IMG/VR virus record: IMGVR_UViG_3300048011_000833
Location: 1 to 37,852 of that record
Reading direction: 5' to 3' (one strand)
DNA length: 37,852 bases
Origin: a virus
Shown here: piece after piece, positions 4,493 through 37,568 of the stretch
Layout of the letters: every line of letters begins with the position of its first letter
Numbering within the stretch: the stretch's first letter is position 1
The notes under the pieces: model-generated
Databases searched by the model: none
Told to the model about the DNA's origin: nothing
Seen by the model: the letters and a program-made list of their open reading frames with translations, nothing else
Position numbers and translations under genes: made by a program

Positions 4493-4525
4493 GTGATTAA
4501 TCCTTAGTTGTAATGTTGTTATAGT

Positions 4526-4533
4526 TATTTATA
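4526..4533 (-). promoter_or_regulatory. T4-type late promoter, perfect TATAAATA
   Basis: On the minus strand these bases read TATAAATA exactly, the T4 late promoter -10 element recognised by gp55. It sits 34 bases before the ATG of the 210-residue ORF, giving an expected start near 4519 and a leader of about 27 bases containing the AGGA ribosome site. It is the best late promoter match in the window and supports gp55-dependent late transcription. Confidence 0.72.
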
Positions 4534-4559
4534 CATTTATGATGAACTAACGTTCATCA

Positions 4560-4592
4560 GTGTTATCGCTATCGCTCAACACATGTTTTTTT
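4560..4592 (+). terminator. Possible weak terminator (stem plus T7)
   Basis: A 5-bp stem GTGTT/AACAC (4560-4564 with 4578-4582) with a 13-base loop is followed by seven T at 4586-4592. It could stop plus-strand read-through from the gp26 pair before the RNA locus. The stem is weak and the site overlaps the -35 of the promoter at 4576, so the T-run may be incidental. Confidence 0.25.
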
Positions 4593-4604
4593 GTTTTGTA
4601 TAAT
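4576..4604 (+). promoter_or_regulatory. Sigma70-like promoter for the candidate RNA
   Basis: TATAAT at 4599-4604 is a perfect -10. It is preceded at exactly 17 bases by TCAACA (4576-4581), four of six matches to TTGACA. The expected start, about 4611, coincides with the first base of the 5' stem-loop of the RNA candidate. Confidence 0.5.
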
Positions 4605-4610
4605 TAGAAG

Positions 4611-5039
4611 TGATTTACTATATGAAGATTCATTATGACGTATGTCATAATGTTTAAGTTTCATGTAGATCGTTTCAGTCAGACGGAACCTGTTACGGTC
4701 CCATCTTTCTCAAAGAAAAACTTCATGTGAGTCTTATCCAGCCGAGAACTTGGAAGTAGGTGTTTTCTGCTACACAATGGGCTCTGACCTTTCCCAACCT
4801 ACGTCGACATCATGACAACATGCTTTTGTAAAACAACACGTTGATGTTATTTTACAGAATGCATGTTATCACTACCTCTCGCTTCGTTCCTAATGCTAAA
4901 GAGTTTTTATGTGTAATGTGCAGTTTTTCGACAGCCAACAATCTATCTACGTCAACCTATTAGCCCAATTTGTTTGATGGCTTCCTCACAGTGGTGAGTC
5001 GATCAACGTGTTACGTGTGCTTCTATACGAGAGCTTTTT
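4611..5039 (+). ncRNA. Candidate structured non-coding RNA, about 430 nt
   Basis: Helices seen by eye, in order. A 10-bp helix pairs 4618-4627 with 4659-4668 and encloses a perfect 9-bp hairpin, 4631-4639/4644-4652. A 5-bp hairpin lies at 4672-4676/4685-4689. A long-range CCCAT/ATGGG pairing joins 4700-4704 to 4777-4781, extended by GGT/ACC. A hairpin of about 23 bp spans 4814-4870. A three-way junction is formed by 4928-4932/4998-5002, 4933-4941/4970-4982 and a hairpin at 4985-4998. The region 4835-4845, at the loop end of the long hairpin, is perfectly complementary over 11 bases to 5002-5012, allowing a pseudoknot or an alternative fold. More G-U pairs are gained on the plus strand than on the minus, and a promoter precedes it. 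No known family was recognised; the strand is not certain. Confidence 0.42.
5019..5039 (+). terminator. Weak intrinsic terminator candidate at the RNA 3' end
   Basis: GCTTCT at 5019-5024 can pair imperfectly with GAGAGC at 5029-5034 (including G-U pairs and one mismatch) around ATAC, followed by five T at 5035-5039. It is placed where the candidate RNA should end. The stem is weak, so efficiency is doubtful. Confidence 0.3.
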
Positions 5040-5072
5040 CCACAGCGGTGTTTATAAACTGGCCCGCCAACC

Positions 5073-5522
5073 TTATGTGTTGGATTGCTTTGCCTGGATG
5101 TTGTGTTCTAACAATGCCTGTTTGAGTTTGTCTGATCCGCCTACTCTAACATTGATGATACCATTGTAGTATTCATCCGTTTCAAGCACCCGCCTGTCAA
5201 ATTGTTCTCTTGCCTCTATGTAGGACATTTCGCCTCTACCTTTACATAGGTATAATATTTCTCTTGTAAACTTGTCTTCGCCTAGTGCAGCAATGTCTGC
5301 GTTCAGTCTATCACTGGATCCCCAGTAAGTACGCCAATCGCTTTCTTTAGTGCCGCGTCTTTTGTTCTTTTTGCCTTTTAAAGGTGGCTTAGTAGTTTTA
5401 AATCTTGCTAGTTTTTTGCCTATGTACTTTTGATTGTTAGTAAGGTTGGTGATAAGATAAACAAAACCTTCGTACTCGTCTGGTATTTCAGTTATTTCTT
5501 TACCTTGATATGTCCAACTCAT
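5073..5522 (-). CDS. GIY-YIG nuclease-like protein, 149 aa
   Basis: The protein has a GIY-YIG-type layout. FVYLITN at residues 20-26 stands for the GIY strand and KYIGKK (YIG at 33-35) for the second motif. A basic lysine-rich insert follows, then SDWRTYWGSS (61-70), an FTREILYLC segment and YIEAREQF (101-108) holding the expected catalytic glutamate. Such small proteins are common in T4-like phages, where relatives act as free-standing homing endonucleases or repair-type nucleases. I cannot tell which applies here. It is the last gene of the gp47-gp46 operon, starting 7 bases after the stop of the preceding ORF with only a weak ribosome site, so coupling is likely. The candidate structured RNA lies just beyond its stop, on the other strand. 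Confidence 0.7.
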   Translation of the reverse strand: MSWTYQGKEITEIPDEYEGFVYLITNLTNNQKYIGKKLARFKTTKPPLKGKKNKRRGTKESDWRTYWGSSDRLNADIAALGEDKFTREILYLCKGRGEMSYIEAREQFDRRVLETDEYYNGIINVRVGGSDKLKQALLEHNIQAKQSNT

Positions 5523-23400: not shown

Positions 23401-23907
23401 ATCAGTGATGAAATTATTTTTCATCCAGTAAAATACAAAGTGTTGTTTGGCACAACTGCTGAAACAGATTTACAAGCAACATTTAAAATTGTTAAAAACA
23501 AAAATAGAGTAGTCAATGACAATGATGTAAAAGCCAGAGTAATTGATGCAATCAATGAATACTTTAGTTTAGAAAATTGGGATTTTGGCGAAACATTTTA
23601 CTGGAGTGAATTGAGTGCGTATATTGTAAAACAAATGTCTCCAGACATTGTGAGTATTGTACTTGTTCCGGTAAGTGGCCAAAGCAGTTTTGGCAGTTTG
23701 TTTGAAGTAAAATCTGAAAGCAACGAAATATTAATCAGTGGTGCAACAGTAGCAAATACAGAAATCATCACAGCAATTACTGCCGATAGATTAAAAGCTC
23801 AAGGTGCAGTAGTTACATCAGTTTCGAGCACAGGAGAAGTAATTCAAAGTGCAGCAGAAACAATTACAATTTCGACAGGTACGTCGACTAGTGAAGGATA
23901 CAATTAA
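20416..23907 (+). CDS. 6: Baseplate wedge protein gp6, enlarged (1163 aa)
   Basis: gp6 forms the inner ring dimers of the baseplate wedge and belongs to the baseplate J family. The N-terminus has FDTLRRTMINYIRLNYPED, followed by a segment ending SEYLALIDLIAFLGQN and ARENFIELADRRESVLRLAR, the clear gp6 signature. The C-terminus has ARVIDAINEYFSLENWDFGE, a J-like wedge domain feature. T4 gp6 is 660 residues; this one is 1163, the extra length being strand-rich middle domains. I chose the ATG at 20416 rather than the GTG at 20410 because GAGG is 8 bases before the former and only 2 before the latter. The stop overlaps the next start (TAATG). The late promoter CATAAATA lies 24 bases upstream. Confidence 0.9.
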   Translation: MSATDRQNKLLLAEDWQTIYQSFKYADFKSYDFDTLRRTMINYIRLNYPEDFSDYIESSEYLALIDLIAFLGQNISFRTDLNARENFIELADRRESVLRLARLISYNPTRIQPANGLLKVVSVQTSENVIDSNGVNLSGRNIRWNDSVNDNWFEQFIKVLNGAYTQENKFGTPRKSELVAGVRTEKYNFNTRSNVFPVFGFNKSINGKSMEFEIVSTDIADGEIVESSPGLGKPVGMLYRDNGQGAGSSNTGFFMHFRQGSLQKAEFTVSLPTPNQTIDLDSANINNQDIWLYQLDRNTQEQTLWTKVDAVEGNNIIYNSVAKNERNIYAVQTRANDRASLIFSDGVFGELPKGNFRAFYRTSENADYTISPNEITNIKLSIPYVSATGNNETLVMQLSLKQTVANAASSESTESIKTNAPSTYYTQNRLITGEDYNIGPLGISQDIIKTKAVNRTSSGINRYYDLKDTTGKYSTTNLFGTDGVLYKEYRDEKHNFSFNTRTDVEAVIENLVTDIIADNNTKNFFADQFIDQDYNDLQLAFKQQTSETNSSTGFLLDSDQLAEVDPQYYALGDFTQGPLRFVQANTLVKFVAPEGKHFMPDGTLMNGAANHIGATTYIWTKVVAIRNDGTELDDITNSGPIVFSDVVPSGAILDKVKIKYTRDILTSVKQDMIDQVFAYRTFGLRYDRESRNWLVITQNNVNITDSYNIGLAGDTSGQNLDRSWIILFETNGIDYTITTRTLRYIFESQKEIRFYFDSNKKIYDSKTGNIVRDKISVLNINTDLLSAGQTSPFTVNFDWAISKEYRDDIGYINSKKVEVVFFDEDDDGVVDNPQIFEDIVSPDSVDFDKKYVFVKKYTEFDTEYYKYVPQADDNIVVVQAYRSINSSRVNNPIYYVIDTDSFWQVTTATRKVEQVFDYKAFVGRDDLKFQYVHAADENNRIDPASSNIMDTYVLTRQYDTAFRQYLKGTVTNAPLPMSSDQLYRSYGKEINAIKSISDEIIFHPVKYKVLFGTTAETDLQATFKIVKNKNRVVNDNDVKARVIDAINEYFSLENWDFGETFYWSELSAYIVKQMSPDIVSIVLVPVSGQSSFGSLFEVKSESNEILISGATVANTEIITAITADRLKAQGAVVTSVSSTGEVIQSAAETITISTGTSTSEGYN

Positions 23908-26900
23908 TGGCATACGATAAAAATCAAAACGATTTTCCATTACCAGCTGGACAAAACCCAGAAAGAAAATCCAGCAATTTTTTGCCAAAATATTTTAGAA
24001 CTGATGCAAACAACAAATTTTTACAATCTACAGTAGACCAGTTTATCAACGAAGGTGTTGTAGAAAAATTAAATTCATTTGTCGGAAAACGCAGTGCTAA
24101 AGCTAGAATTCCTGCAGACACTTATCTAAGCGATGTATCTCCTGAAAGAGAAAACTATCAGTTTGAGCCAAGTGTTGTATACAAGGACGAACTTGACAAT
24201 TTAAAATTCTTTGCTGATTACAATGATTATATCGGACAAATACAAAATTTCAAAGGCAACATTGCTAACCAACGTATTTTAAATCAACAAGAATCTTATA
24301 GTTGGGATCCTAGTATAGATTGGGACAAGTTTAGCAACTTTAGAGAATACTATTGGCTACCGATGGGTCCCCTTCCAATTAAAGTTGCTGGACAAAATGA
24401 AAAAGTAACCAGTACATACAATGTAGAAACTGTAGACGATGCTGGCAGTGTGTCTTATGTGTTTTTTCCGGACGGGCTTACAAGAAACCCAACAGTTGAC
24501 TTGTACAGATCTCAAGAAATTCGTATAGAAATCAACACTCCGGGATTTCCTTTTGCACTAGCAACATCGAGAGATTTTGACGATAACGATCCTTTATTGG
24601 GTGTAGATCAACAAAACAACAGCGTCTTGTATACCCAAGGAATTAAAAAATTCAAATATGACGATGTTGGTCAACTTGTAGAAACAGATGACGAATACAT
24701 TGAAAACGGTGTAATTTTGTTCACTCCTGATGAGGATACTCCTGATGAATTGTTTTACATCAATCAGCGAGACGTTAACATCAGTGGATTAATAAACATA
24801 TATTACATAGATGAAAACAGTACCATTGATGTTGAAAAAGAAATTCTAGGAAAGCGCGATTACACCACAAGCCGCGGCATAAAATTATCAAACGGCATGA
24901 AATTGTATTTTGTAGGAAATGCATTACCAGAAAAATACAACAGCGGATATTGGTATGTTGAAGGTGTAGGAACAGCTATTAAGCTAGTCAACGAAAACGA
25001 CTTAGAAGTTCCTGCGGTATTTACAAGTTTGGAACCTGTTCCGTTTGATAATAATGCATACGGTTATGATAGATTTCCATACGAAGATGCTGCAAGCTAT
25101 CCAGCCAACAAAGATTATATTACAATAAACAGATCCAGTGCTGACAGAAATCCGTGGAGTAGATACAACCGCTGGTTCCACAAAGATGTAATCGAAACCA
25201 GTGCAAGAGAAGTAGGAGTAGAGCCTGAGCTAAATCAAGATGCAAGAGCAAAACGTCCTATTATAGAATTTGATGCAGGTCTTAAGTTGTTCCAGCACGG
25301 AAATGTTGCAAAGCAAAATGTTAATTTAGTAGACACAACTACAAAAGATGTGTTTAGTACAATCGAAGGATTGGAAGGATATATTGTTGACGGCGTAACA
25401 CTAACCGACGGCATGCGCATATTGTTTACAGCAGATACTGATGCATTAGTAGCAGGAAAAATTTACAAAGTAAACTTTATTAACTTTGGACAAGAAACCA
25501 AAAAAAGACAAATCAGTTTAGTAGAAGAAACAGACAGCAATCCTCAAGAAGGCGAATGTGTGCTTTCACTGGCAGGAAACTCTAATGCTGGACAAATGTT
25601 CTATTATTCAAACGGCAAGTGGAATGCAAGTCAGAAAAAAACACAAATAAATCAATCACCTCTGTTTGATTTGTTTGACAAAGAAAAAACTAGCTTTGCC
25701 GACGAAATAGCATACATTGCTAGTTCTTTTGCAGGAAATAAAATTTTTAGTTATGCAACAGGCACAGGAAGCAATGATGTTGAATTAGGGTTTCCGTTGA
25801 AATATAAAAATATTGCCAACGTTGGAGATATTGTTTTTGACTTTGATCTATTACAAAAGTCGTTTACGTATCAAGATAATTTACAAAATCAATTCGAAAA
25901 AACAACAGATGTAGGATTTGTAGAAGTTTACAACAGTGTATCAAATACAATTTCTTATAAAAATGCATGGACTAAAACTGTTGACAACGAATTAACCAAA
26001 CAAGGTGTTGTTAGATTATATGAAAATCAAAAAAACAATTTTGAAATTGATGTATATGAAAATCAGTCCTTGCCTGTATACGAAAAAGTTTATGTAAACG
26101 GTGTAAAAAAATACAAAAACAAAGACTACGTTGTAGTTGACGGTATTAATTTCAAAGAAGTTAAATTCAACAAAGATTTGTCGGTTGACGATCTAGTGGT
26201 TATAAAAAGTTATTCGTTGTCCCCTAAAAATCAAAATGGGTTTTATGAAATTCCTCAAAATTTGGAAAGCAACCCTTTAAACAACAACGTATTACAATTT
26301 ACATTAGGTGAAGTTAACAGTCATGTAGAATCAATTGTTGAAAACAATTCTGCATTTGAAGGAATTTATCCAGGACCTAGCAATCTTAGAGATCAGAAGT
26401 TTGTATCACAATATGGTACAAGATTTATGCAGCACAGCGGTCCTGCAAATCTTGCGATATATCATATCACAAACAAAACTGCTAATGTAGTCAAAAGCAT
26501 TGAATTTGCAAGTAAAGAATACAGCAAATTCAAGCAACAGTTTATCAAAGAATCAGAATTAACTGGATTTCACGGCAGTGCTGCAAAGCATGTTGATATA
26601 ATAATGAACAATTTAAACAAAGACAAGAATCAAGATTTTTCTTTCTTTGCTAGTGACATGGTTGCATACAAACCTAGCGTAACAACTGTTCACACTATTG
26701 AATACAACGGAGAAGCATATTTTGCACTATCTGAAAGTTTTGATTTATCCACACTAACAAATCAAGCAGTGTATGTGTACTTGAATGAAGAACATTTGAT
26801 TTACAACATTGATTATGTATTTGAAGACGGATTTGTAAAAGTTACTCGTAACTTGGTAGAAGACGATGAAATTACAGTAATCGAATACAACAACACAAAC

Positions 26901-29900
26901 GGCTGTTATATTCCACCAACTCCTAGCAAACTGGGATTGCTTCCTAGCTTTGTACCAGAGCAGTTTGTATATACTACAACCTCTGGAAATACTGTTAACA
27001 TGATTAGATGTCACGACGGTAGTATGACAAGGGCGTATGACGATTATAGAGATGAACTGATTCTTGAATTAGAATTGCGTATTTACAACAATATCAAATC
27101 ACTTTATAATGCAGACATTTTGGACTTTTATGATTTCCAACCTGGGTATTCGAGAAACACAGGCATTAGCAAACAAGAAATCGATTCAATCCTGCTAAAA
27201 GATTTTAGTAACTGGCTGGAAAAAGCCAGTAACCCAGATTACAGTGATTCCAGCTTCTGGGATAATTCCAATGCATTTACCTACAACTACAGCAACAGCA
27301 CAGATTTAAATGGCGTGCCGTTGCAGGGTTCTTGGTACAACATTTACATGCATTATTTTGACACTTCTAAGCCGAATACTCGTCCTTGGGAAATGCTGGG
27401 ATTTGATACTGCTCCTACATGGTGGGAGTCGCAGTATGGACCTGCTCCGTATACCAGCAACAACACCATACTTTGGAATGACTTGCGTGACGGTTTAATT
27501 AGAGAACCTGGCAAAGCTATTGTTATCAACAAGAAATTTGCAAGACCGATACTCAACAAAATTGTTCCTGTAAACGAATACGGTCAGTTGATTGATCCGT
27601 TGGAATCGGGATTGTGCAAAAACTTTGTGCTGTTGGAAAGCAAGCAAAGTTACAAGTTTGGTGATCAAGCACCTGTTGAAAGAGCATGGAGAGAAAGCAG
27701 CGAATACAAGTTTGCACTTCTCAAAGCATGGACGCTACTACAGCCTGCTAAACTATTAGGCACTGGGTTTGATATCAGTAGAATGTCAAGAGACCTTTCT
27801 GGCAACATAATTTATACTCCAACACAAAAAAGAATCCGCACTGAAGATTTGCTGTTTCCTGATGTATCCGGCGAAAGCAACAGCAGTGTTCACACCAGTG
27901 GATTGGTTAACTATATTGCAAATTATGTAAAATATACCAAAGCTGGAGAGTACGAAAACTACAAAACAGAAGTTAAAAATCTCAACAATCAGTTGAGTTT
28001 TAAATTGGGCGGATTTGCCGACAAGACCAAACTAAAATTAGTATTAGACAGCAGAAGTCCTTTGAACAAAACAAGTGTATTTGTTCCTGATGAAAACTAT
28101 GACATATTCTTAAACACCAGTAGTGTACAAGATACTCCTACGTTAAGCGGTATTATTATTGAAAAGTTAAACAGTGGAAAATATCTAATCAAAGGCTATG
28201 ACAAAGAAAATCCAGTGTTTACAATAACTCCTGCAAAACCAACACAACAAGATTCTGCAATCACAGTCGGCGGAGTAAGCGACGATTTTGTTACATGGAA
28301 CGAAGGCAAAACCTATAGCATTGGCACTATTGTTGAATACAACGGAACATACTACAGAACAAAGATAACACATCAAAGTACGGAAACTTTTGATAATGGA
28401 AAATTTGCCAAACTAGCCGAGCTTCCAATCAAAGGCGGCCAGTCTGCAATTATTAGAAGAAACTTTGAAACCAACACCGTGGATATTCCTTATGGAACAC
28501 AGTTTGCTAATGTTCAGGAAGTTGCAGACTTTATGCTAGGTTATGAAAATTACCTAAAATCTCAAGGATTTATTTTTGAAAGCGTAAATCAAGAATCTGC
28601 ACAAGTAGAAGATATGAAATTGTCTTTGCAAGAGTTTTTATTCTGGGTAACACAGAACTGGGAAGTAGGAACAGTGCTAGCAGTAAGTCCTGTTGCAAAC
28701 GAAGTTAAATTTGCAAGAGATTATTATACTGTTGACAACATCTACGATCCATTTTATGAAACAACCATCCTAACAGGCAGTGGTCAAATATTAGGACCAG
28801 AGTTTAATAATGTATTTAGAGACCGAGACGTTGATTTTAGTTTGCGTCCTATTGCTACCGATGGCGGCGTGTATCTTATCAAATTGCCCTTGGTGCAAAC
28901 AGAGCATGTTGTATTAATTGACAACCAAACCGTCTTCAATGATACTATTTACGATCCAACTGCTGGTTTTAGGCAAGAAAGAATCAAAGTTGTAGGGTAC
29001 AGAACCGATGGATGGACTGGTAATTTAAATATTCCAGGATTTATTTACGATCAAGCAACTGTAACTCTTTGGGCACCATTTACAGATTATCCAATCGGTA
29101 GTCTTGTAAAGTACAAAGAATTTTATTATAGTTCTTTCAACAAACACACCAGCGGAGAAACATTCAACGACGACAACTGGAGAAAATTATCTCAGCGTCC
29201 AGTGTCTCAAATACTTCCTAACTGGGATTATAAAACAAACCAATTTGCTGACTTTTACGACTTGGATACAGACAATTTTGACACTGAACAACAGCGTTTA
29301 GCACAGCACTTGATTGGCTATCAGCCAAGAGAATATCTTGCTAATATTATCACAGACAGTGTTAGCCAATACAAATTCTATCAAGGATTTATCCAAGAAA
29401 AGGGAACTAAAAATTCTCTTACAAAACTTTTCGAACCGCTAAGTGCTGCAAACAAAGACAGCGTTGAGTTTTACGAAGAATGGGCTATTAGATTAGGACA
29501 GTACGGTGCTATTGACAATCTAAGAGAAATTGAGTATAGATTAGATGAATCAAAATACAAGTTGGAACCACAGGTGTTTGAACTTACGGATAGTATAAGT
29601 CAAACTAGACTTGATCTAGCAATCGAAATTCCAAAAAGCACTGTTTATAAAAAACCAGCTGATTACGATCATACTATTGTTCCTGCTCTCAACAGCAACA
29701 AAACATATACCAGAAACACAGGATATGTTAAAAACGACCAAGTATCTTATGTTATTACCAATTGGGAAAACATATTAGATGTTGATATCAACACACTAAA
29801 TGTTGGTGAAAATATCTGGATAACACAAAATGAACTGAATGTTTGGGCAACTTACAAGCATGTTAGATCTGACTTAGTTGTAGAATCTTATGCAGCTTCG

Positions 29901-32900
29901 ACATTTGAAGATATTGACACAGTTGAAGTTGTAGTAGACGGATATATCAAAGATATCAGTGTTGACGATTATGTTGGAATCTTAGCACCAAACTTTTCAG
30001 GGTTTGCACAAGTAATTGATGTAAATTTAAACAAGCTACAATTAATCGGGCTGCCAACACCTCCAGCAGTTGAAGCTGACGATAGTACAGAAAATCCATA
30101 TGCAGATGCTTCTATTACTAAATTTGTAAACAGAAGATATACCAATGTTGATGAATTGGGCAACAATGTTACAAACATTGAAAAAGACAATGTTGACACA
30201 GTTTGGTTGGACGACAACGGCACAGGAAACTGGACAGTTTACGAAAACCGCAGTGTGTTTGATCTATCAAGAGAAATAGGCAACCAAGAAGATATACTAG
30301 GATTTGCAGAAAGTTTTGATGTCAACAAAACCAACACTGTGTTAGCAGCAGGCAATCCCAGAAAAGAAGAACTTACAATCTTTACAAGAACAAACAACAA
30401 GTTTGATTTTAGAAATATCACTTATATTTCGCCAAATGATTCGCACGATGTTGGGTCAGATTACGGAACAAGTGTTGCAGTATCCCCGAACGGTTTAACT
30501 ATTGCAGTTGGTGCTCCTTTGGCAAGTAATGTAATAACAAGGTTTGTAGGACCACTTGAACCTGGCGTTGCATACAGTGCAGGTGATATTGTTTCTGACA
30601 GAGGAACACTGTGGCGTGCAAAAAATGACATTACAACTTGGGAAGACCCAACAGGCGACAGCAGTACTATTTCAGTTAATGACCAAGATTGGGAACCAGC
30701 CTATATGATTACAGCAGGCGAAGGTGTTTCGTCTGGATTTGCAAATCAAGGTGTAGTCTATGTTTATACCAAAAATCAAGTCACTGAAAATTACAATTTA
30801 GATTTTGTACTTTCAAGTCCTGATCCTAAGTCAAATGCATTGTTTGGACAGCAGATTAAATTAGCACAAACCAGTTATGGCAGTACAAAGATGTTTATTA
30901 GTGCTCCAGGAGACGACACTGGTAAAATATACTTCTTTGAAAAACTCGATGAATGGCAGTGGTCTAGAAACACTGCTTACAAAGACATATACAGCGATAC
31001 AGCAAAATACAATGTTGGTGATATTGTGTTTTATAATAACAACTTATATGAAGCATTGACAACTATAGCACCTGGCAGTGCATTGCCTACAGATACTACA
31101 AAATGGCAATTAGCAGAACCGATTGAGCACACTGGTTATGTTCCAAATCGTGCACACGAGCTGGACGGCGAAATTATTGATCTCAACAATATGTCAAACT
31201 TTGGATACGATTTTGAAGTTAATGCATTCGGCGACAAACTGGTTGCAGAATCATATGACAGCCAATCTCGAAAAGTTATCAATGTATACAACAACATCAG
31301 CACACGTTGGAATTACATACAGCAAATAACTGAAATCACAGAAAAAACTGAGTTTGGTTATTCTTATGACATCAACGATGACGGCGATATTATTGCTATA
31401 AGTGCGCCTCTTGCAGACGAAAAAGGCACAGACAGCGGCAGTGTTTATGTGTACGAACAAGGTGCAGACAACACATACAGCTTGAAACAAACTGTCTACA
31501 GTCCGTTCAATGAACAAAATGAAGTGTTTGGCACCAGTGTAAAATTCAGCAACAACAAATTGGCTATTGTTGGCAAAAACACTGACATCAAAAACTTTAC
31601 AACATTTGATTTGATTGATGAAGACAATGTCACGGTGTTTGACAACAGCAACACAAAGTTTTCAACAACAATTGAAGACGCAGGACGTATACTGTTATTC
31701 CAAGAAATTGCAAATAGATTTGTGTATGCAGAAGACATTGATTACAGAAGAGATCTAAGCAACTTCAGTTTGGAAAACTTTAAGATTAACAACGGCCAAA
31801 TTTTCTTGAGTTTGCCGTTCTATGCACCAACACAAGATCGTCAACCGACTACCGATGGCAATTATATAGTGAGCAACAACAAAGGTTTGATTGCTGAAAT
31901 TTCCACAGGAACCAGCAAAGACACTTGGTTGCCAATTGCTGAACAAGTGGATAGACCAGACATCAAAAAAATCGATCAGGTGTTCTTGTACAATATTGAT
32001 TCTCAAGACATCACACAAAAACTTGATGTAATTGATCCAAGATTGGGTAAAATTGCCGGACCGGCAGAACAGGAAATTGCATACAAAACTCCATATGATC
32101 CTGCAACATACACAGAAACAGATGGGTTGCAAGATGTAATTGTAGATTTTGGCAGCAACTGGACAGACAAACAAGTAGGACAAGTTTGGTGGAACATTGA
32201 TCGTGCCAGCTGGTACGATGTTTACCAAGGCGAAACAAGCTACAGAACTGCAAACTTCAACAAGCTCGTACCTGGCTATGAAATTCAAGTGTGCGAATGG
32301 GTAGGCACAGATCTTACTCCGCGAGAATGGAGAGCACAAACCGGTACTGCTGAAGGATATGCCGCTGGTGTTAGTGGCGTACCGCTGTATGAAAACACAT
32401 ACAGTGTAAGAAGAAAATATGACTCGGTTAAAAAACAATTTAAAAATCGCTACTACTATTGGGTGCGCAACACAGAAATTGTTCCAAACATTGGATTTAG
32501 ATCAATTAGTTCTCAGTCAATTGCACAGTTGATTGCAGATCCTGCATCAACAGGATACAAGTTTGCAATTATGCTGGCAAACAACAAATTTGCATTGTAC
32601 AATTGTAAGAGTCTTGTAGAAGGTACAAACACTGTAATTCAATTTAGAACACAGTCAGACGAAACACTGACTGCAAACATACACAGTGAATATCAGTTGC
32701 TTTCTCAAGGATTGGATCTTAGTATTCCTAACAGAGACATTGAATCAAAGTGGCATGACAGTTTGATTGGGTATGACATTTTGGCAAACCCTGTTCCTGA
32801 CAATACACTTCCTGAATCACAAAAATATGGTATCTTGAATTTACCAAGACAAAGTATGTTTGTAAACCGTTTGGAAGCAGTAAAACAATTTGTTGATAGA

Positions 32901-35900
32901 GCTAATGTGGTATTTTTGCAAAATCAAATAGTTGACAATTATGATATCAGCAAGTTGTTGTTGAAAGACATTCCTCCGCAGTTGGGCGAAGGATACTACG
33001 ATGTTGTCATTGACACACAAGAAGACTTGCAATTTGTCGGAGTAGCAAAAACTGAGCCAGCAGTTGTTTCGTTAACAATTGATTCCGGAACAATTACCAA
33101 TGCTGTTATTGTAAATCCGGGTAGAGGATACAAATCACCTCCGATAATTGAAATTGAAGACGCTTATGGAAAAGGCGCAATTTTAAATACTGCAATAGAC
33201 AACTTGGGAAAACTTGTTTCTGTAGATGTACGAACAGGCGGCAACAATTACAGTCAAAGTGCAATTGCTAAGATTAGAAAGTTCAGTGTGTTGGTAAGTG
33301 CTGACACAACACTCGGAGGCATTTGGGCAATATATGAATGGAACAAAGTTTCTCAAACTTGGGATAAGTCTGTAAATCAAAGCTATGATACAACCAAGTA
33401 TTGGAGTTATGCAGACTGGTATGCAACAGGTTATAATTCAAACACTGTTGTAGATTACACAATTGGCCAAAGCTATGAACTGTTTGGTCTTAACAATACA
33501 ATTGGTGATATTGTAAAAATCAAAAACATCGGCACCGGCGGATGGTTGTTGCTTAAAAAAGTTGATGACCAAGACACTGAAGATTACACAGTAAACTATG
33601 ACACTGTTGGACGTGAAAACGGCACAATTCAACTAAATGATTTGCTGTACAATTATAGTTCTGAAACAAGCGGATACGATGCAATTGCATATGATACTGC
33701 ATTTTATGACAAAGAGCCTGTCCAGGAGCTGAGAAATATAATTGATGCTATTAAAGAAGATTTGTTTGTAAGCGATCTGACAGTAGAATACAACGAATTG
33801 TTTTTTGCAGCACTGCGTTATGCACACACAGAACAGCCAAACATTGACTGGGCATTTAAATCTAGCTTTGTTAGAGCAAAGCACAACGTTGGCGATCTTG
33901 TGCAAAAAATAACTTATCAAAATGATAACCTTGAAAACTACCAAGATTACATTGAAGAAGTCAAGCCGTACAAAACAAAAATTAGAGAGTACATCAGTGC
34001 ATACAGCGCATTAGAGCCAACCGGTAGTATGGTTTCTGATTTTGACTTGCCACCAAGTTATATCAATGGCAGTATTAAGCCAAGTATTGCAAAATATGCC
34101 AATAATACCATCACTCAGTTGTATGACGATTACAGTGCAGCACCTTACAAAAATTGGGTAGACAACAACAAGTTTGACATTATTAGAATTGATATAGCAG
34201 CAGGCGGCAGCGGATATTTAGAAACACCGTCAGTTGTTATTGATGGCGATGATGCTCCTATCTTACGTGCTTATCTTGCAAGAGGAAAAGTAAAATCTAT
34301 TGAAATCGAAACTGCCGGCAAGCAGTATTACACTGCTCCTGAAGTTAAAATCATAGGTCAGAGCACAACACCTGCAAAAGCAGTTGCTATACTAGGAAAT
34401 GGTTTAGCAAGAAGCACCCACATGGTAATACGCTTTGATAGAGTTAGTGGCAAACGCTATATAGAAAACATCAACTCTATTGAAACATTTGCCGGCACAG
34501 GCGCAAAAGAAAAGTACATGCTAAAATGGCCACTCAATGTAAAAACAGATAGCTACACAGTTACTATTGATGGCATTGAACAATTAAGTGGAACATACAC
34601 AGTTGGTAACGATGTTGATTTTAGTCTAGGACACGAGCGTTTCTTGGGATATGTTGATTTTGTCAATCCTCCGGCTAATAATTCTGTAGTAGTTGTTAAC
34701 TATCAAAAAGCAACCAGCATGTTATCAGCTGCTGATAGAATATTCACTGAATATAATCCAACCAGCGGAATGCCTGGAATTTCTGAATCTGGCAGTCTTG
34801 CAAGCCTAATGAAAGGCGTTGAGTACGAAGGCGTTCTTTATGATTCGTATGCATTTGGCAATGAGCAAGGTTTCGGACAAGGCGGCTTCGGCGATCTTCC
34901 TTTTGATACATTTGTAAACACATTTGAAGATGAAGTAATTGTGCTAGATGGCAGTACTAATAGAGTGCAACTTGCAGAGCCATTGGAAGCAGGTGTTACT
35001 TACAACGTATATCTAAATGATGTTAGACTAGACGATGCCAACTATGATGGAAGTTCAATTGTAGACAATACAAATGCTATTATGGCATCCATTGAAGGCG
35101 ACGGAGTTATTGATTATATTGATCTCGACAACGACTTGGTACAAACCGCAGACGGAGATGTATTGATTGTGCGTAAGAGCACAAGTGACGGCAGCTTTAC
35201 TCCTGTAGGCAGCACATATGACACAAGTCTTGCAGGCGGCTCTCTGGATTACACAACAGCCAGCGGAGTCGGTGCTGGAGAAATCATCATCGACGGCGAT
35301 GGCTTTAGAACACAGGCCAACAGCAGCGGTCCTGAAGAAATGGTTCCGGGTACTGTAATTGATACACTAGACATGAAAGTATATCATAGAGCAACAGACG
35401 GAGTTGGCATTATCAGTGTAGCAAATTACTGGACTGATGCAGAAACGTTTGTTTATGATTTGCCAGGTCAGCCAGCAGATATTGACAGTATTATTATGAT
35501 ACTAGATGGCGAAATTCTTGACAGCACAACGTATTCAGTTGATTATGAAAACAATCAAGTGTATTTTGACGATAGTACCAGCAGTGTTGATGTGAATTTG
35601 TGCATTATTACCATCGGAGTAAATGGCGCAGATTTGATAGATACCCAAACTGTTGCATATGATGGCAACAATATTATACCTACATTGGCAGATTTTGCTG
35701 ATGCAAAAACTGTTGTTGTGCTCAGAAATGGCAGAATACTAGAAAAAGACACAGACTACACAATAACATCTTCAGATAGAAACAAAGCAGTTATCAACTT
35801 AATAGTTGGAAAAGTTATAGGAGACATTTTCCAGTACATGATTTACAATAACACTGTTAAGTCGTTTAGTCAAGTTATTATTGATAAGACATTTAATAGT

Positions 35901-37568
35901 GACAGTGCTGTTTCCAACTATCACAGATTTACTGGAAACAATCCTGTTCCATTCAACGACCTGCCAATAAGTCATAAAATATTGGTCAGGTCGGGAGACC
36001 AAATACTAAGTCCAGGATACAGTATTAGACATGTTACTACCAGCAATAGAGTTTACAAAGTTGACGGCTGGCAATTTGACGATGTTACAAACATCAGCTC
36101 GGTTGACGTATTGGTGTTTGTTGATAATCAACTGTTGGATCGCAAGTTGTGGACATGGGACAACATTGAAAGTGAAATTAGATTACTGAGAAACGATGTT
36201 GCACCAGCAGGAAGCAATCTTGATATTTACTTTGTAACAAATGCAGATTATTACTTTGTTGATACAAAAATTACGTTTGACACAGATTCAGCAATTGATT
36301 TGGTTGATATAGTAACTGTTGGAGAAACTGTAAAACTCACAAGTACAGATACTTCGGCTATATATGAATTTATTGCAGAAGCAGTAACAGACGATTCTAT
36401 AACAGTTCAAAGTATCAGCAAAGAAATTACAGCAGAATATTTGAACAATGACGAGTTTGTTGTAAATGTTGGCGACGACAGTGTGTACATGACTGTGTCT
36501 GATGTTGAATACATTTTAAGCAACAACATCACAATCAACAAAGATCGTATTTTAGATATTGATATTATACAGTTTAGCAATCACGATATCAATAACTTCC
36601 AGCGTTATACATTTGATGTTATTTCAACAACAGATCTTGATAAAAACACAGCAGAATTCAACAAGCGCAACTTGTTGAGCAATGGTATAATACAGTTGCA
36701 AGGCGAAGTTGCTGGAACCAACTATGCATGGGTAATCAAGAACGGCTATATGCTTTCACCAAATGTTGATTATATTGTTACTAAAAATCTAAATGCAGTA
36801 CAACTAAGCGAATTGCCAAACGAAAATGACAGAATTGACATTATTCACTTTGCAAACAGCACAGTAACTCCTGTATTTGGATATAGAATATTTAGAGACA
36901 TGGTCGGCAGAACGCACTACAAACGACTGAACCAAGCAAACAGTTATCGAGTAGCAACTGATGTTAATTACTATGATTACAGAATTGAACTTGAGGACGC
37001 AACAGGAATAATGCAGCCAGATGCAGCAAGAAATGCACCGGGTATTATTTGGATTGATGCAGAGCGTATTGAATACTTTGGAATCAGTGGAAACTTCCTA
37101 ACACAAGTTAGAAGAGGTACATTAGGAACTGGTGTTAAAACTGTGCACGAAGCAGGAAGTATTGCTTACGGCCAAGGCCCAGGCGAAAATATTTCCTACA
37201 ACGACACATTGAACATACATACTACAAGAGCTGATGGTTCGTCAGATATCACTGATATGGAGTTTACAGTGTCAAACATCAACGAAGTTGAAGTGTTTGT
37301 AGGAGGACGCAGACTGAGAAAGAATTCGATTAGTGTGTTTAATCCTGCAATAGACCAAGACTCTCCGGCAGGCGACGAAACAGCGCCAGCAGAATTTACT
37401 GTTGCCAACGGCATTATATCATTGGCAACAGTTCCTGCAGATGGTGTTGAAATAAAAGTAATCAAAAAAGTTGGGTCTACTTGGACAGAACCGGGCACAG
37501 ATTTAGCAACTTCACAAAAATCAATAGCAAAATTCTTACGCGGAGCAACAATTGAGCTACCCCGATAA
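23907..37568 (+). CDS. Giant baseplate/fibre structural protein, 4553 aa
   Basis: The gene fills over a third of the window. The N-terminus has SSNFLPKYFRTDANNKFLQS and a WDKFSNFREYYWLP segment, which I associate with large baseplate proteins that follow gp6 in marine T4-like phages, in the place of gp7. Carbohydrate-binding-like modules (G-x-I-V-x-Y-N-x-x-Y-Y pattern) occur at about 1462-1508, 1719-1765, 2209-2266 and 2348-2405. Seven FG-GAP-like repeats lie between about 2120 and 2675. Two GxGY-x-x-P modules lie near 3065-3122 and 3428-3485. At least eight strand modules of the type VxVNGxxLxxxxDY recur. No frameshift is seen. T4 gp7 is 1032 residues. It likely joins wedge assembly with host-surface contact; the function is inferred. 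Confidence 0.72.
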   Translation: MAYDKNQNDFPLPAGQNPERKSSNFLPKYFRTDANNKFLQSTVDQFINEGVVEKLNSFVGKRSAKARIPADTYLSDVSPERENYQFEPSVVYKDELDNLKFFADYNDYIGQIQNFKGNIANQRILNQQESYSWDPSIDWDKFSNFREYYWLPMGPLPIKVAGQNEKVTSTYNVETVDDAGSVSYVFFPDGLTRNPTVDLYRSQEIRIEINTPGFPFALATSRDFDDNDPLLGVDQQNNSVLYTQGIKKFKYDDVGQLVETDDEYIENGVILFTPDEDTPDELFYINQRDVNISGLINIYYIDENSTIDVEKEILGKRDYTTSRGIKLSNGMKLYFVGNALPEKYNSGYWYVEGVGTAIKLVNENDLEVPAVFTSLEPVPFDNNAYGYDRFPYEDAASYPANKDYITINRSSADRNPWSRYNRWFHKDVIETSAREVGVEPELNQDARAKRPIIEFDAGLKLFQHGNVAKQNVNLVDTTTKDVFSTIEGLEGYIVDGVTLTDGMRILFTADTDALVAGKIYKVNFINFGQETKKRQISLVEETDSNPQEGECVLSLAGNSNAGQMFYYSNGKWNASQKKTQINQSPLFDLFDKEKTSFADEIAYIASSFAGNKIFSYATGTGSNDVELGFPLKYKNIANVGDIVFDFDLLQKSFTYQDNLQNQFEKTTDVGFVEVYNSVSNTISYKNAWTKTVDNELTKQGVVRLYENQKNNFEIDVYENQSLPVYEKVYVNGVKKYKNKDYVVVDGINFKEVKFNKDLSVDDLVVIKSYSLSPKNQNGFYEIPQNLESNPLNNNVLQFTLGEVNSHVESIVENNSAFEGIYPGPSNLRDQKFVSQYGTRFMQHSGPANLAIYHITNKTANVVKSIEFASKEYSKFKQQFIKESELTGFHGSAAKHVDIIMNNLNKDKNQDFSFFASDMVAYKPSVTTVHTIEYNGEAYFALSESFDLSTLTNQAVYVYLNEEHLIYNIDYVFEDGFVKVTRNLVEDDEITVIEYNNTNGCYIPPTPSKLGLLPSFVPEQFVYTTTSGNTVNMIRCHDGSMTRAYDDYRDELILELELRIYNNIKSLYNADILDFYDFQPGYSRNTGISKQEIDSILLKDFSNWLEKASNPDYSDSSFWDNSNAFTYNYSNSTDLNGVPLQGSWYNIYMHYFDTSKPNTRPWEMLGFDTAPTWWESQYGPAPYTSNNTILWNDLRDGLIREPGKAIVINKKFARPILNKIVPVNEYGQLIDPLESGLCKNFVLLESKQSYKFGDQAPVERAWRESSEYKFALLKAWTLLQPAKLLGTGFDISRMSRDLSGNIIYTPTQKRIRTEDLLFPDVSGESNSSVHTSGLVNYIANYVKYTKAGEYENYKTEVKNLNNQLSFKLGGFADKTKLKLVLDSRSPLNKTSVFVPDENYDIFLNTSSVQDTPTLSGIIIEKLNSGKYLIKGYDKENPVFTITPAKPTQQDSAITVGGVSDDFVTWNEGKTYSIGTIVEYNGTYYRTKITHQSTETFDNGKFAKLAELPIKGGQSAIIRRNFETNTVDIPYGTQFANVQEVADFMLGYENYLKSQGFIFESVNQESAQVEDMKLSLQEFLFWVTQNWEVGTVLAVSPVANEVKFARDYYTVDNIYDPFYETTILTGSGQILGPEFNNVFRDRDVDFSLRPIATDGGVYLIKLPLVQTEHVVLIDNQTVFNDTIYDPTAGFRQERIKVVGYRTDGWTGNLNIPGFIYDQATVTLWAPFTDYPIGSLVKYKEFYYSSFNKHTSGETFNDDNWRKLSQRPVSQILPNWDYKTNQFADFYDLDTDNFDTEQQRLAQHLIGYQPREYLANIITDSVSQYKFYQGFIQEKGTKNSLTKLFEPLSAANKDSVEFYEEWAIRLGQYGAIDNLREIEYRLDESKYKLEPQVFELTDSISQTRLDLAIEIPKSTVYKKPADYDHTIVPALNSNKTYTRNTGYVKNDQVSYVITNWENILDVDINTLNVGENIWITQNELNVWATYKHVRSDLVVESYAASTFEDIDTVEVVVDGYIKDISVDDYVGILAPNFSGFAQVIDVNLNKLQLIGLPTPPAVEADDSTENPYADASITKFVNRRYTNVDELGNNVTNIEKDNVDTVWLDDNGTGNWTVYENRSVFDLSREIGNQEDILGFAESFDVNKTNTVLAAGNPRKEELTIFTRTNNKFDFRNITYISPNDSHDVGSDYGTSVAVSPNGLTIAVGAPLASNVITRFVGPLEPGVAYSAGDIVSDRGTLWRAKNDITTWEDPTGDSSTISVNDQDWEPAYMITAGEGVSSGFANQGVVYVYTKNQVTENYNLDFVLSSPDPKSNALFGQQIKLAQTSYGSTKMFISAPGDDTGKIYFFEKLDEWQWSRNTAYKDIYSDTAKYNVGDIVFYNNNLYEALTTIAPGSALPTDTTKWQLAEPIEHTGYVPNRAHELDGEIIDLNNMSNFGYDFEVNAFGDKLVAESYDSQSRKVINVYNNISTRWNYIQQITEITEKTEFGYSYDINDDGDIIAISAPLADEKGTDSGSVYVYEQGADNTYSLKQTVYSPFNEQNEVFGTSVKFSNNKLAIVGKNTDIKNFTTFDLIDEDNVTVFDNSNTKFSTTIEDAGRILLFQEIANRFVYAEDIDYRRDLSNFSLENFKINNGQIFLSLPFYAPTQDRQPTTDGNYIVSNNKGLIAEISTGTSKDTWLPIAEQVDRPDIKKIDQVFLYNIDSQDITQKLDVIDPRLGKIAGPAEQEIAYKTPYDPATYTETDGLQDVIVDFGSNWTDKQVGQVWWNIDRASWYDVYQGETSYRTANFNKLVPGYEIQVCEWVGTDLTPREWRAQTGTAEGYAAGVSGVPLYENTYSVRRKYDSVKKQFKNRYYYWVRNTEIVPNIGFRSISSQSIAQLIADPASTGYKFAIMLANNKFALYNCKSLVEGTNTVIQFRTQSDETLTANIHSEYQLLSQGLDLSIPNRDIESKWHDSLIGYDILANPVPDNTLPESQKYGILNLPRQSMFVNRLEAVKQFVDRANVVFLQNQIVDNYDISKLLLKDIPPQLGEGYYDVVIDTQEDLQFVGVAKTEPAVVSLTIDSGTITNAVIVNPGRGYKSPPIIEIEDAYGKGAILNTAIDNLGKLVSVDVRTGGNNYSQSAIAKIRKFSVLVSADTTLGGIWAIYEWNKVSQTWDKSVNQSYDTTKYWSYADWYATGYNSNTVVDYTIGQSYELFGLNNTIGDIVKIKNIGTGGWLLLKKVDDQDTEDYTVNYDTVGRENGTIQLNDLLYNYSSETSGYDAIAYDTAFYDKEPVQELRNIIDAIKEDLFVSDLTVEYNELFFAALRYAHTEQPNIDWAFKSSFVRAKHNVGDLVQKITYQNDNLENYQDYIEEVKPYKTKIREYISAYSALEPTGSMVSDFDLPPSYINGSIKPSIAKYANNTITQLYDDYSAAPYKNWVDNNKFDIIRIDIAAGGSGYLETPSVVIDGDDAPILRAYLARGKVKSIEIETAGKQYYTAPEVKIIGQSTTPAKAVAILGNGLARSTHMVIRFDRVSGKRYIENINSIETFAGTGAKEKYMLKWPLNVKTDSYTVTIDGIEQLSGTYTVGNDVDFSLGHERFLGYVDFVNPPANNSVVVVNYQKATSMLSAADRIFTEYNPTSGMPGISESGSLASLMKGVEYEGVLYDSYAFGNEQGFGQGGFGDLPFDTFVNTFEDEVIVLDGSTNRVQLAEPLEAGVTYNVYLNDVRLDDANYDGSSIVDNTNAIMASIEGDGVIDYIDLDNDLVQTADGDVLIVRKSTSDGSFTPVGSTYDTSLAGGSLDYTTASGVGAGEIIIDGDGFRTQANSSGPEEMVPGTVIDTLDMKVYHRATDGVGIISVANYWTDAETFVYDLPGQPADIDSIIMILDGEILDSTTYSVDYENNQVYFDDSTSSVDVNLCIITIGVNGADLIDTQTVAYDGNNIIPTLADFADAKTVVVLRNGRILEKDTDYTITSSDRNKAVINLIVGKVIGDIFQYMIYNNTVKSFSQVIIDKTFNSDSAVSNYHRFTGNNPVPFNDLPISHKILVRSGDQILSPGYSIRHVTTSNRVYKVDGWQFDDVTNISSVDVLVFVDNQLLDRKLWTWDNIESEIRLLRNDVAPAGSNLDIYFVTNADYYFVDTKITFDTDSAIDLVDIVTVGETVKLTSTDTSAIYEFIAEAVTDDSITVQSISKEITAEYLNNDEFVVNVGDDSVYMTVSDVEYILSNNITINKDRILDIDIIQFSNHDINNFQRYTFDVISTTDLDKNTAEFNKRNLLSNGIIQLQGEVAGTNYAWVIKNGYMLSPNVDYIVTKNLNAVQLSELPNENDRIDIIHFANSTVTPVFGYRIFRDMVGRTHYKRLNQANSYRVATDVNYYDYRIELEDATGIMQPDAARNAPGIIWIDAERIEYFGISGNFLTQVRRGTLGTGVKTVHEAGSIAYGQGPGENISYNDTLNIHTTRADGSSDITDMEFTVSNINEVEVFVGGRRLRKNSISVFNPAIDQDSPAGDETAPAEFTVANGIISLATVPADGVEIKVIKKVGSTWTEPGTDLATSQKSIAKFLRGATIELPR

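Follow-up and report, generated by a model that had tools for sequence, protein, structure and literature searches.

A predicted pseudoknotted RNA family of uncultured aquatic phages carries two short elements that change in lockstep

Large RNAs of unknown function are known from phages as a broad group, and two of them, GOLLD and ROOL, are families in Rfam. We know of no pair of 7-nt elements changing in lockstep in either. CsrB and LhrC repeat identical short single-stranded motifs within one RNA, motifs that are near constant between species, and the OMEGA RNAs and reRNAs found next to IscB and TnpB are structured RNAs directly behind, and overlapping, a nuclease gene. The RNA described here, predicted from one phage record and its homologues, has something in common with each. 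Like CsrB and LhrC it would display an identical short motif more than once; however, relatives differ in this motif, both copies changing together, and the fold is much more intricate. Like the OMEGA RNAs it lies directly behind a nuclease gene and overlaps it, but that nuclease is of the GIY-YIG type and is absent from most loci in other phages, and no variable end guide was seen. Like GOLLD and ROOL it is large, multi-helix, phage-borne and of unknown function (PMC12286853), but it has no Rfam match and other neighbors. What is new is an RNA family without an Rfam relative and a twin element of a kind unfamiliar to us; among mostly open-access journal papers, judged by title and the opening lines of the abstract, none describing this RNA was found.

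The window, that is the whole stretch analyzed, is a virus record of 37,852 bases. Its late sigma factor, gp47, gp46 and baseplate genes are T4-like, and among isolates the closest gp46 proteins, with no more than 49% identity, are those of large phages such as Phosso and PA5oct; the source appears to be a large, uncultured, aquatic T4-like phage. A gap of 580 bases (4493-5072) separates two minus-strand genes, a 210-aa open reading frame and a SegE-like GIY-YIG endonuclease (5073-5522, minus strand; PF19835, E 5.2e-36). The protein is hardly more than a nuclease domain, residues 3-123 of 149 matching PF19835. The initial annotation had correctly seen the gap, which is non-coding, with no open reading frame of 60 aa or more, and had placed the GIY-YIG gene opposite the RNA; the gene is in fact on the same strand and upstream.

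The same annotation had proposed a new phage RNA of roughly this size, belonging to no known family and transcribed from the plus strand, starting at a TATAAT box. The RNA, its size and its novelty withstood analysis; the strand did not. The strong folding that had been claimed belongs to the minus strand (z = -4.9, with 0 of 100 shuffles folding as well, versus z = -2.0 and two shuffles for the plus strand). The consensus folding energy is likewise lower on the minus strand (-139.8 versus -120.8, and -107.2 versus -86.2 in a second comparison). The excess of G-U pairs had been assigned to the wrong strand: read on the minus strand, 870 of the 9375 cells hold G-U pairs, which on the plus strand would be A-C mismatches. 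Homologues preserve the minus-strand structure, and the TATAAT box (4599-4604) sits in a stretch that, judged by eye, is highly variable. A plus-strand RNA with its own promoter was ruled out by the strand-specific covariation, folding and consensus energy. A decayed protein gene, the other outcome that homologues might have revealed, was ruled out by the lack of a 60-aa frame in the gap and by covariation of the RNA type. Together these comparisons point to a new structured RNA family encoded on the minus strand of the gap.

Covariation was scored in several samples. From 272 oriented loci (some of them the same contig fetched twice), 217 were extracted and reduced to 158 distinct cores. Of the 55 dropped, 29 lacked the 5′ anchor (contig ends or another 5′ domain), 13 lacked P9-P11, and the rest failed on length (6), P9 (5) or ends (2); loci with an alternative 5′ domain (L201, L203, L208 and others) were left out of the 158. 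In these longer cores, 60 pairs in 12 helices, one of them a pseudoknot, accounted for 201 double changes that each fell on one branch of the tree; 21 of the 60 pairs reached p<0.01, and P4 stood out most clearly. P3a, parts of P3 and P7, and the outer pairs of P6 were weakly supported in this alignment, probably owing to misalignment. In 51 diverse 3′ cores, a 22-pair structure was 97.9% paired, against 28-46% for slid versions, and none of 500 shuffles matched it on any of five measures. We also ran an all-pairs test on 102 sequences in which substitutions were re-scattered on the tree as the null; ten column pairs reached E<0.05. Of these, six were standard pairs in 99-100% and a seventh in 81% of sequences; the other three were non-standard and lay in variable regions. 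The covariation check in homologues therefore favored an RNA, with compensatory changes beyond those given by phylogeny. When a covariance model (R1) built from 51 hand-chosen diverse cores was run on 11 uncultured records, every record contained a single strong match, matches to the model's own records being partly by construction.

As judged by conservation and covariation in homologues, the structured RNA covers about 5083 to 4560, with its probable 5′ end at or beyond 5083 and its probable 3′ end at or below 4560. All features below are on the minus strand. The 5′ strand of P1 (CCAACA, 5078-5083) lies within the last codons of the GIY-YIG gene and pairs with TGTTGG at 4935-4940, which sits in the loop of hairpin P5, so that P1 is itself a pseudoknot. 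It is 97.5-100% paired with up to 7 same-branch double changes per pair, and is preserved also where it is non-coding (L102, L119). Hairpin P2 (5044-5068; 5064-5068 with 5044-5048) is 97-100% paired. Helix P4 (4950-5008; 5003-5008 with 4950-4955) closes a variable domain and is 94-100% paired, its pairs having between 1 and 18 same-branch double changes and three of them 12, 17 and 18. Hairpin P5 (4930-4947) is 92-98% paired, with p about 0.003 in two pairs. The 5′ strand of P6 (ACACA, 4910-4914) forms a long-range pairing with 4772-4776 that is 75-96% paired, has 5-9 same-branch double changes per pair and gave the top signal in the all-pairs test. Hairpin P7 (4876-4903) bears a conserved loop, AGGAACGA (4884-4891), and shows up to 17 same-branch double changes, with 63-90% pairing and partial misalignment.

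Further 3′, compensatory changes and pair counts in the 51 and 158 cores define a core at 4756-4805, in which P9 pairs 4797-4802 with 4756-4761, P10 pairs 4793-4796 with 4778-4781, and a pseudoknot directly 5′ of P9 pairs 4803-4805 with 4786-4788. The pseudoknot varies as a unit (GAC/GUC, GUG/CAC, GCA/UGC). Hairpin P11 (4682-4705), formed by GATGGGACC with GGTTCCGTC, is highly conserved and 89-100% paired, with mostly one-sided G-U changes. The last element is a 3′ hairpin (GTGTT/AACAC, 4560-4582), a possible terminator, whose loop motif GAGCGATAGCGAT occurs in 170 of 206 homologues. The hairpin of about 23 bp noted initially is real, being our P8 (4811-4873), but it is a variable appendage, its excised tip measuring 0-109 nt in 146 homologues. 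What had been read as a two-tier 5′ stem-loop corresponds, in the RNA of the minus strand, to its variable region of 3′ hairpins. The 11-base complementarity of 4835-4845 with 5002-5012 is present in the letters, but 5003-5008 belong to the covarying P4; we rejected this pairing for that reason, and by eye it is also lost in L022, which has the same type of P8 hairpin. In one group of loci (L201, L203, L208, L210, L365 and others) the whole 5′ domain (P1-P5) is replaced by a sequence starting with GGACACTGTTT, and the 3′ core is retained.

None of the 4227 families of Rfam 15 reached the curated gathering score of its covariance model anywhere in the window, and the gap at E<=10 returned only miRNA and snoRNA noise. 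Single regions and loci searched at relaxed E-values also gave sub-threshold noise only, the lowest E (0.0034, isrG in L275) falling outside the RNA and on the other strand. The Rfam search suggested at the outset thus returned no family, leaving membership in GOLLD or ROOL without a match, and a 6S-like regulator with a long hairpin does not agree with the multi-helix, pseudoknotted fold. ARAGORN found no tRNA or tmRNA gene in the window, and neither class had an Rfam match. The RNA would add a large class absent from the Rfam library used, with very strong covariation, frequent in uncultured aquatic phages and present in different phage types.

Hairpin P11 is flanked by two copies of a 7-base element, ACAUGAA in the window (copy 1, 4722-4728; copy 2, 4660-4666). 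The copies agree, position by position, in 156, 158, 158, 158, 158, 158 and 156 of the 158 cores. On a tree built without the element columns, identical changes in both copies fell on the same branch 36 times, compared with 3.2 expected by chance placement, and these lockstep changes span six of the seven positions. For each element column the best covarying partner is nearly always the same position in the other copy, whereas the flanking letters differ between copies and show no lockstep. Pairing of the copies with each other was rejected, as it breaks in 30 of 154 cores and leaves the outer positions unexplained. No position in the RNA or in its tail consistently holds a complement of the elements, no complementary column covaries with them, and the complement of a locus's own variant is not enriched in the surrounding loci. 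When eight records were scanned whole, the longest pairing site outside the RNA was 12-15 nt per record and the sites were scattered; two fell in homologous genes of the records G002 and G003, apparently on the strand opposite the reading frame, so the message there would bear the element itself rather than its complement. Identity kept without mutual pairing seems best explained by one common reader of both copies. The twin elements are a direct handle on function: whatever they bind must change alongside them and could therefore be sought through coevolution and through pull-downs with mutants.

Based on these results we propose a model in which the conserved core (P6, P7, P9, P10, P11 and the pseudoknot) would display two unpaired, identical 7-nt elements around P11. 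During infection both would bind a single outside partner, most probably a second RNA or a DNA with which they base-pair. Such pairing would account for the element length and for much of the lockstep; at two positions A and G could both pair with U, so that pairing alone would not force lockstep there. The downstream genes differ from locus to locus whereas the RNA is retained, an observation that speaks against a leader acting in cis. We therefore favor an autonomous RNA that acts in trans through a binding element present twice over a leader of the next gene, and rate that choice as about even. The same even chance applies to the combined claim that the family is a large (about 450-540 nt), pseudoknotted, minus-strand RNA which acts in trans through a partner shared by the twin elements. 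The RNA probably has an important job during infection. Weighed against action in trans are the partner scans, with their scattered sites only, and the scarcity of promoters. Sigma-70-type promoters were found upstream in only 5 of 150 loci (0.55 expected), with at most one mismatch at 88-99 nt in L073, L119, L151 and L181 and farther upstream in L114; the four nearby ones nevertheless speak for an autonomous RNA. The T4-type late promoter TATAAATA lies 24 nt upstream in L225 and 55 nt in L272, with no general enrichment (4 of 150 loci versus 4.3 expected). In most loci the putative transcript would have to arise by read-through from upstream genes or from a promoter of unrecognized type.

The twin elements could instead be two sites for one sequence-reading protein, either sequestered by the RNA or forming the center around which the RNA is organized. 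RNAs such as CsrB sequester proteins through repeated motifs, and exactly two copies with flanks free to differ would suit such sites; 36 lockstep changes over six of seven positions, however, would demand frequent shifts in specificity, and we regard this explanation as unlikely. We think it decidedly unlikely that the elements are contact sites in a multimeric particle or scaffold. The RNA is large, compact, pseudoknotted and phage-borne, and GOLLD and ROOL form homo-oligomers (PMC12286853), but no Rfam family matches, and the elements are not self-complementary in those same 30 of 154 cores, which makes pairing contacts between copies improbable.

A further alternative joins the RNA and the GIY-YIG protein in one system, the RNA guiding or holding the nuclease and the twin elements serving as guide segments. 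A search with the protein found 80 viral loci, all with homologous gap DNA behind the gene, the homology in the longer loci mostly ending near 4526-4660 and the DNA beyond differing in most. In all 123 distinct T4-like cores with 1.4 kb of upstream sequence the gene directly precedes the RNA on the same strand, and of 20 with less, 19 have it upstream; in the window P1 overlaps the gene end, and the protein has little beyond its nuclease domain. Against this, the gene is absent from seven of eight loci without T4-like genes that have 1.4 kb upstream (and from one of seven with less), so that, other than in OMEGA-like systems, a nuclease gene does not accompany every RNA locus. The linkage also lies within a syntenic block, which likewise ruled out a mobile GIY-YIG homing cassette, and phage Melnitz has a 71% identical gene without such an RNA. 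A joint system with the GIY-YIG protein is accordingly also decidedly unlikely. We give equally little weight to a guide whose rigid fold would present both 7-nt elements at once, each having to match one shared target that differs between phage lineages, for cleavage, silencing or recombination, with the GIY-YIG enzyme as effector in large T4-like phages and another enzyme elsewhere; if true, it would be a new RNA-guided system. Finally, a ribozyme or intron-like remnant, suggested by the highly conserved pseudoknotted core and nearby homing-type nucleases, is very improbable, since no group I intron or ribozyme family in Rfam matches, the RNA lies between genes in the window, none of the surrounding genes was found to be interrupted, the syntenic block is not a mobile unit, and in L073, L119, L151 and L181 a promoter separates the GIY-YIG gene from the RNA.

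Occurrence in other phage types without the GIY-YIG gene indicates that the RNA stands on its own and has passed from phage to phage. L306 carries a small-phage terminase that shares about 52% identity with the terminases of Pelagibacter phages and phage DSL-LC06, and the RNA tree places L306, L288 and L227 in one clade together with six freshwater-type T4-like loci (support 0.965), which suggests transfer. L106 has a terminase small subunit match downstream, and L225 a short frame in a similar place that matches no family. Upstream of the RNA, at a distance of about 1 to 1.5 kb, both loci, which lack the GIY-YIG gene, have an HNH endonuclease (5023-5421 in L106, 1481-2047 in L225). Two DNA patterns of the RNA each gave at least 120 viral-contig matches, and two variant patterns gave 5 and 46; the predicted RNA appears common to many marine and freshwater phages. 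Among isolates, blastn with three RNA variants found no match in 50,697 phage records, and the covariance model found no convincing match in seven whole isolate records (best E 3.2), seven loci of those records (best E 5.4) or three records of small phages (best E 1.2). In phage DSL-LC06 a gap of 755 bases (L362, 573-1327) is placed like the RNA in L306 and starts with letters similar to CACACAAGG; it does not match R1 and may hold another or very distant RNA.

In GTDB genomes one pattern had no match, and a second matched only two contigs (L365 and L366; 335 and 153 kb) of one Neomarinimicrobiota MAG. Matches to GIY-YIG and to a baseplate hub occur in both, and one of the two adds gp46, gp47 and gp55, so the contigs look like phage; their binning is a possible hint at the host, or contamination. 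ARAGORN found no tRNA gene in 42 pieces (L308-L337, L345-L350, L352-L357) that span four records of large phages (109-236 kb) and almost the whole of another (120 kb), which is unusual for large T4-like phages. Of the 80 contigs from the protein search, 29 (among L008-L081) end within 450 bases behind the GIY-YIG stop, inside the RNA; assembly may break there where co-occurring phages are nearly identical. Elsewhere in the window, a 4553-aa open reading frame (23907-37568) that matches a chitin/cellulose-binding module (CBM_5_12) and an FG-GAP repeat probably encodes a giant tail or adhesion protein.
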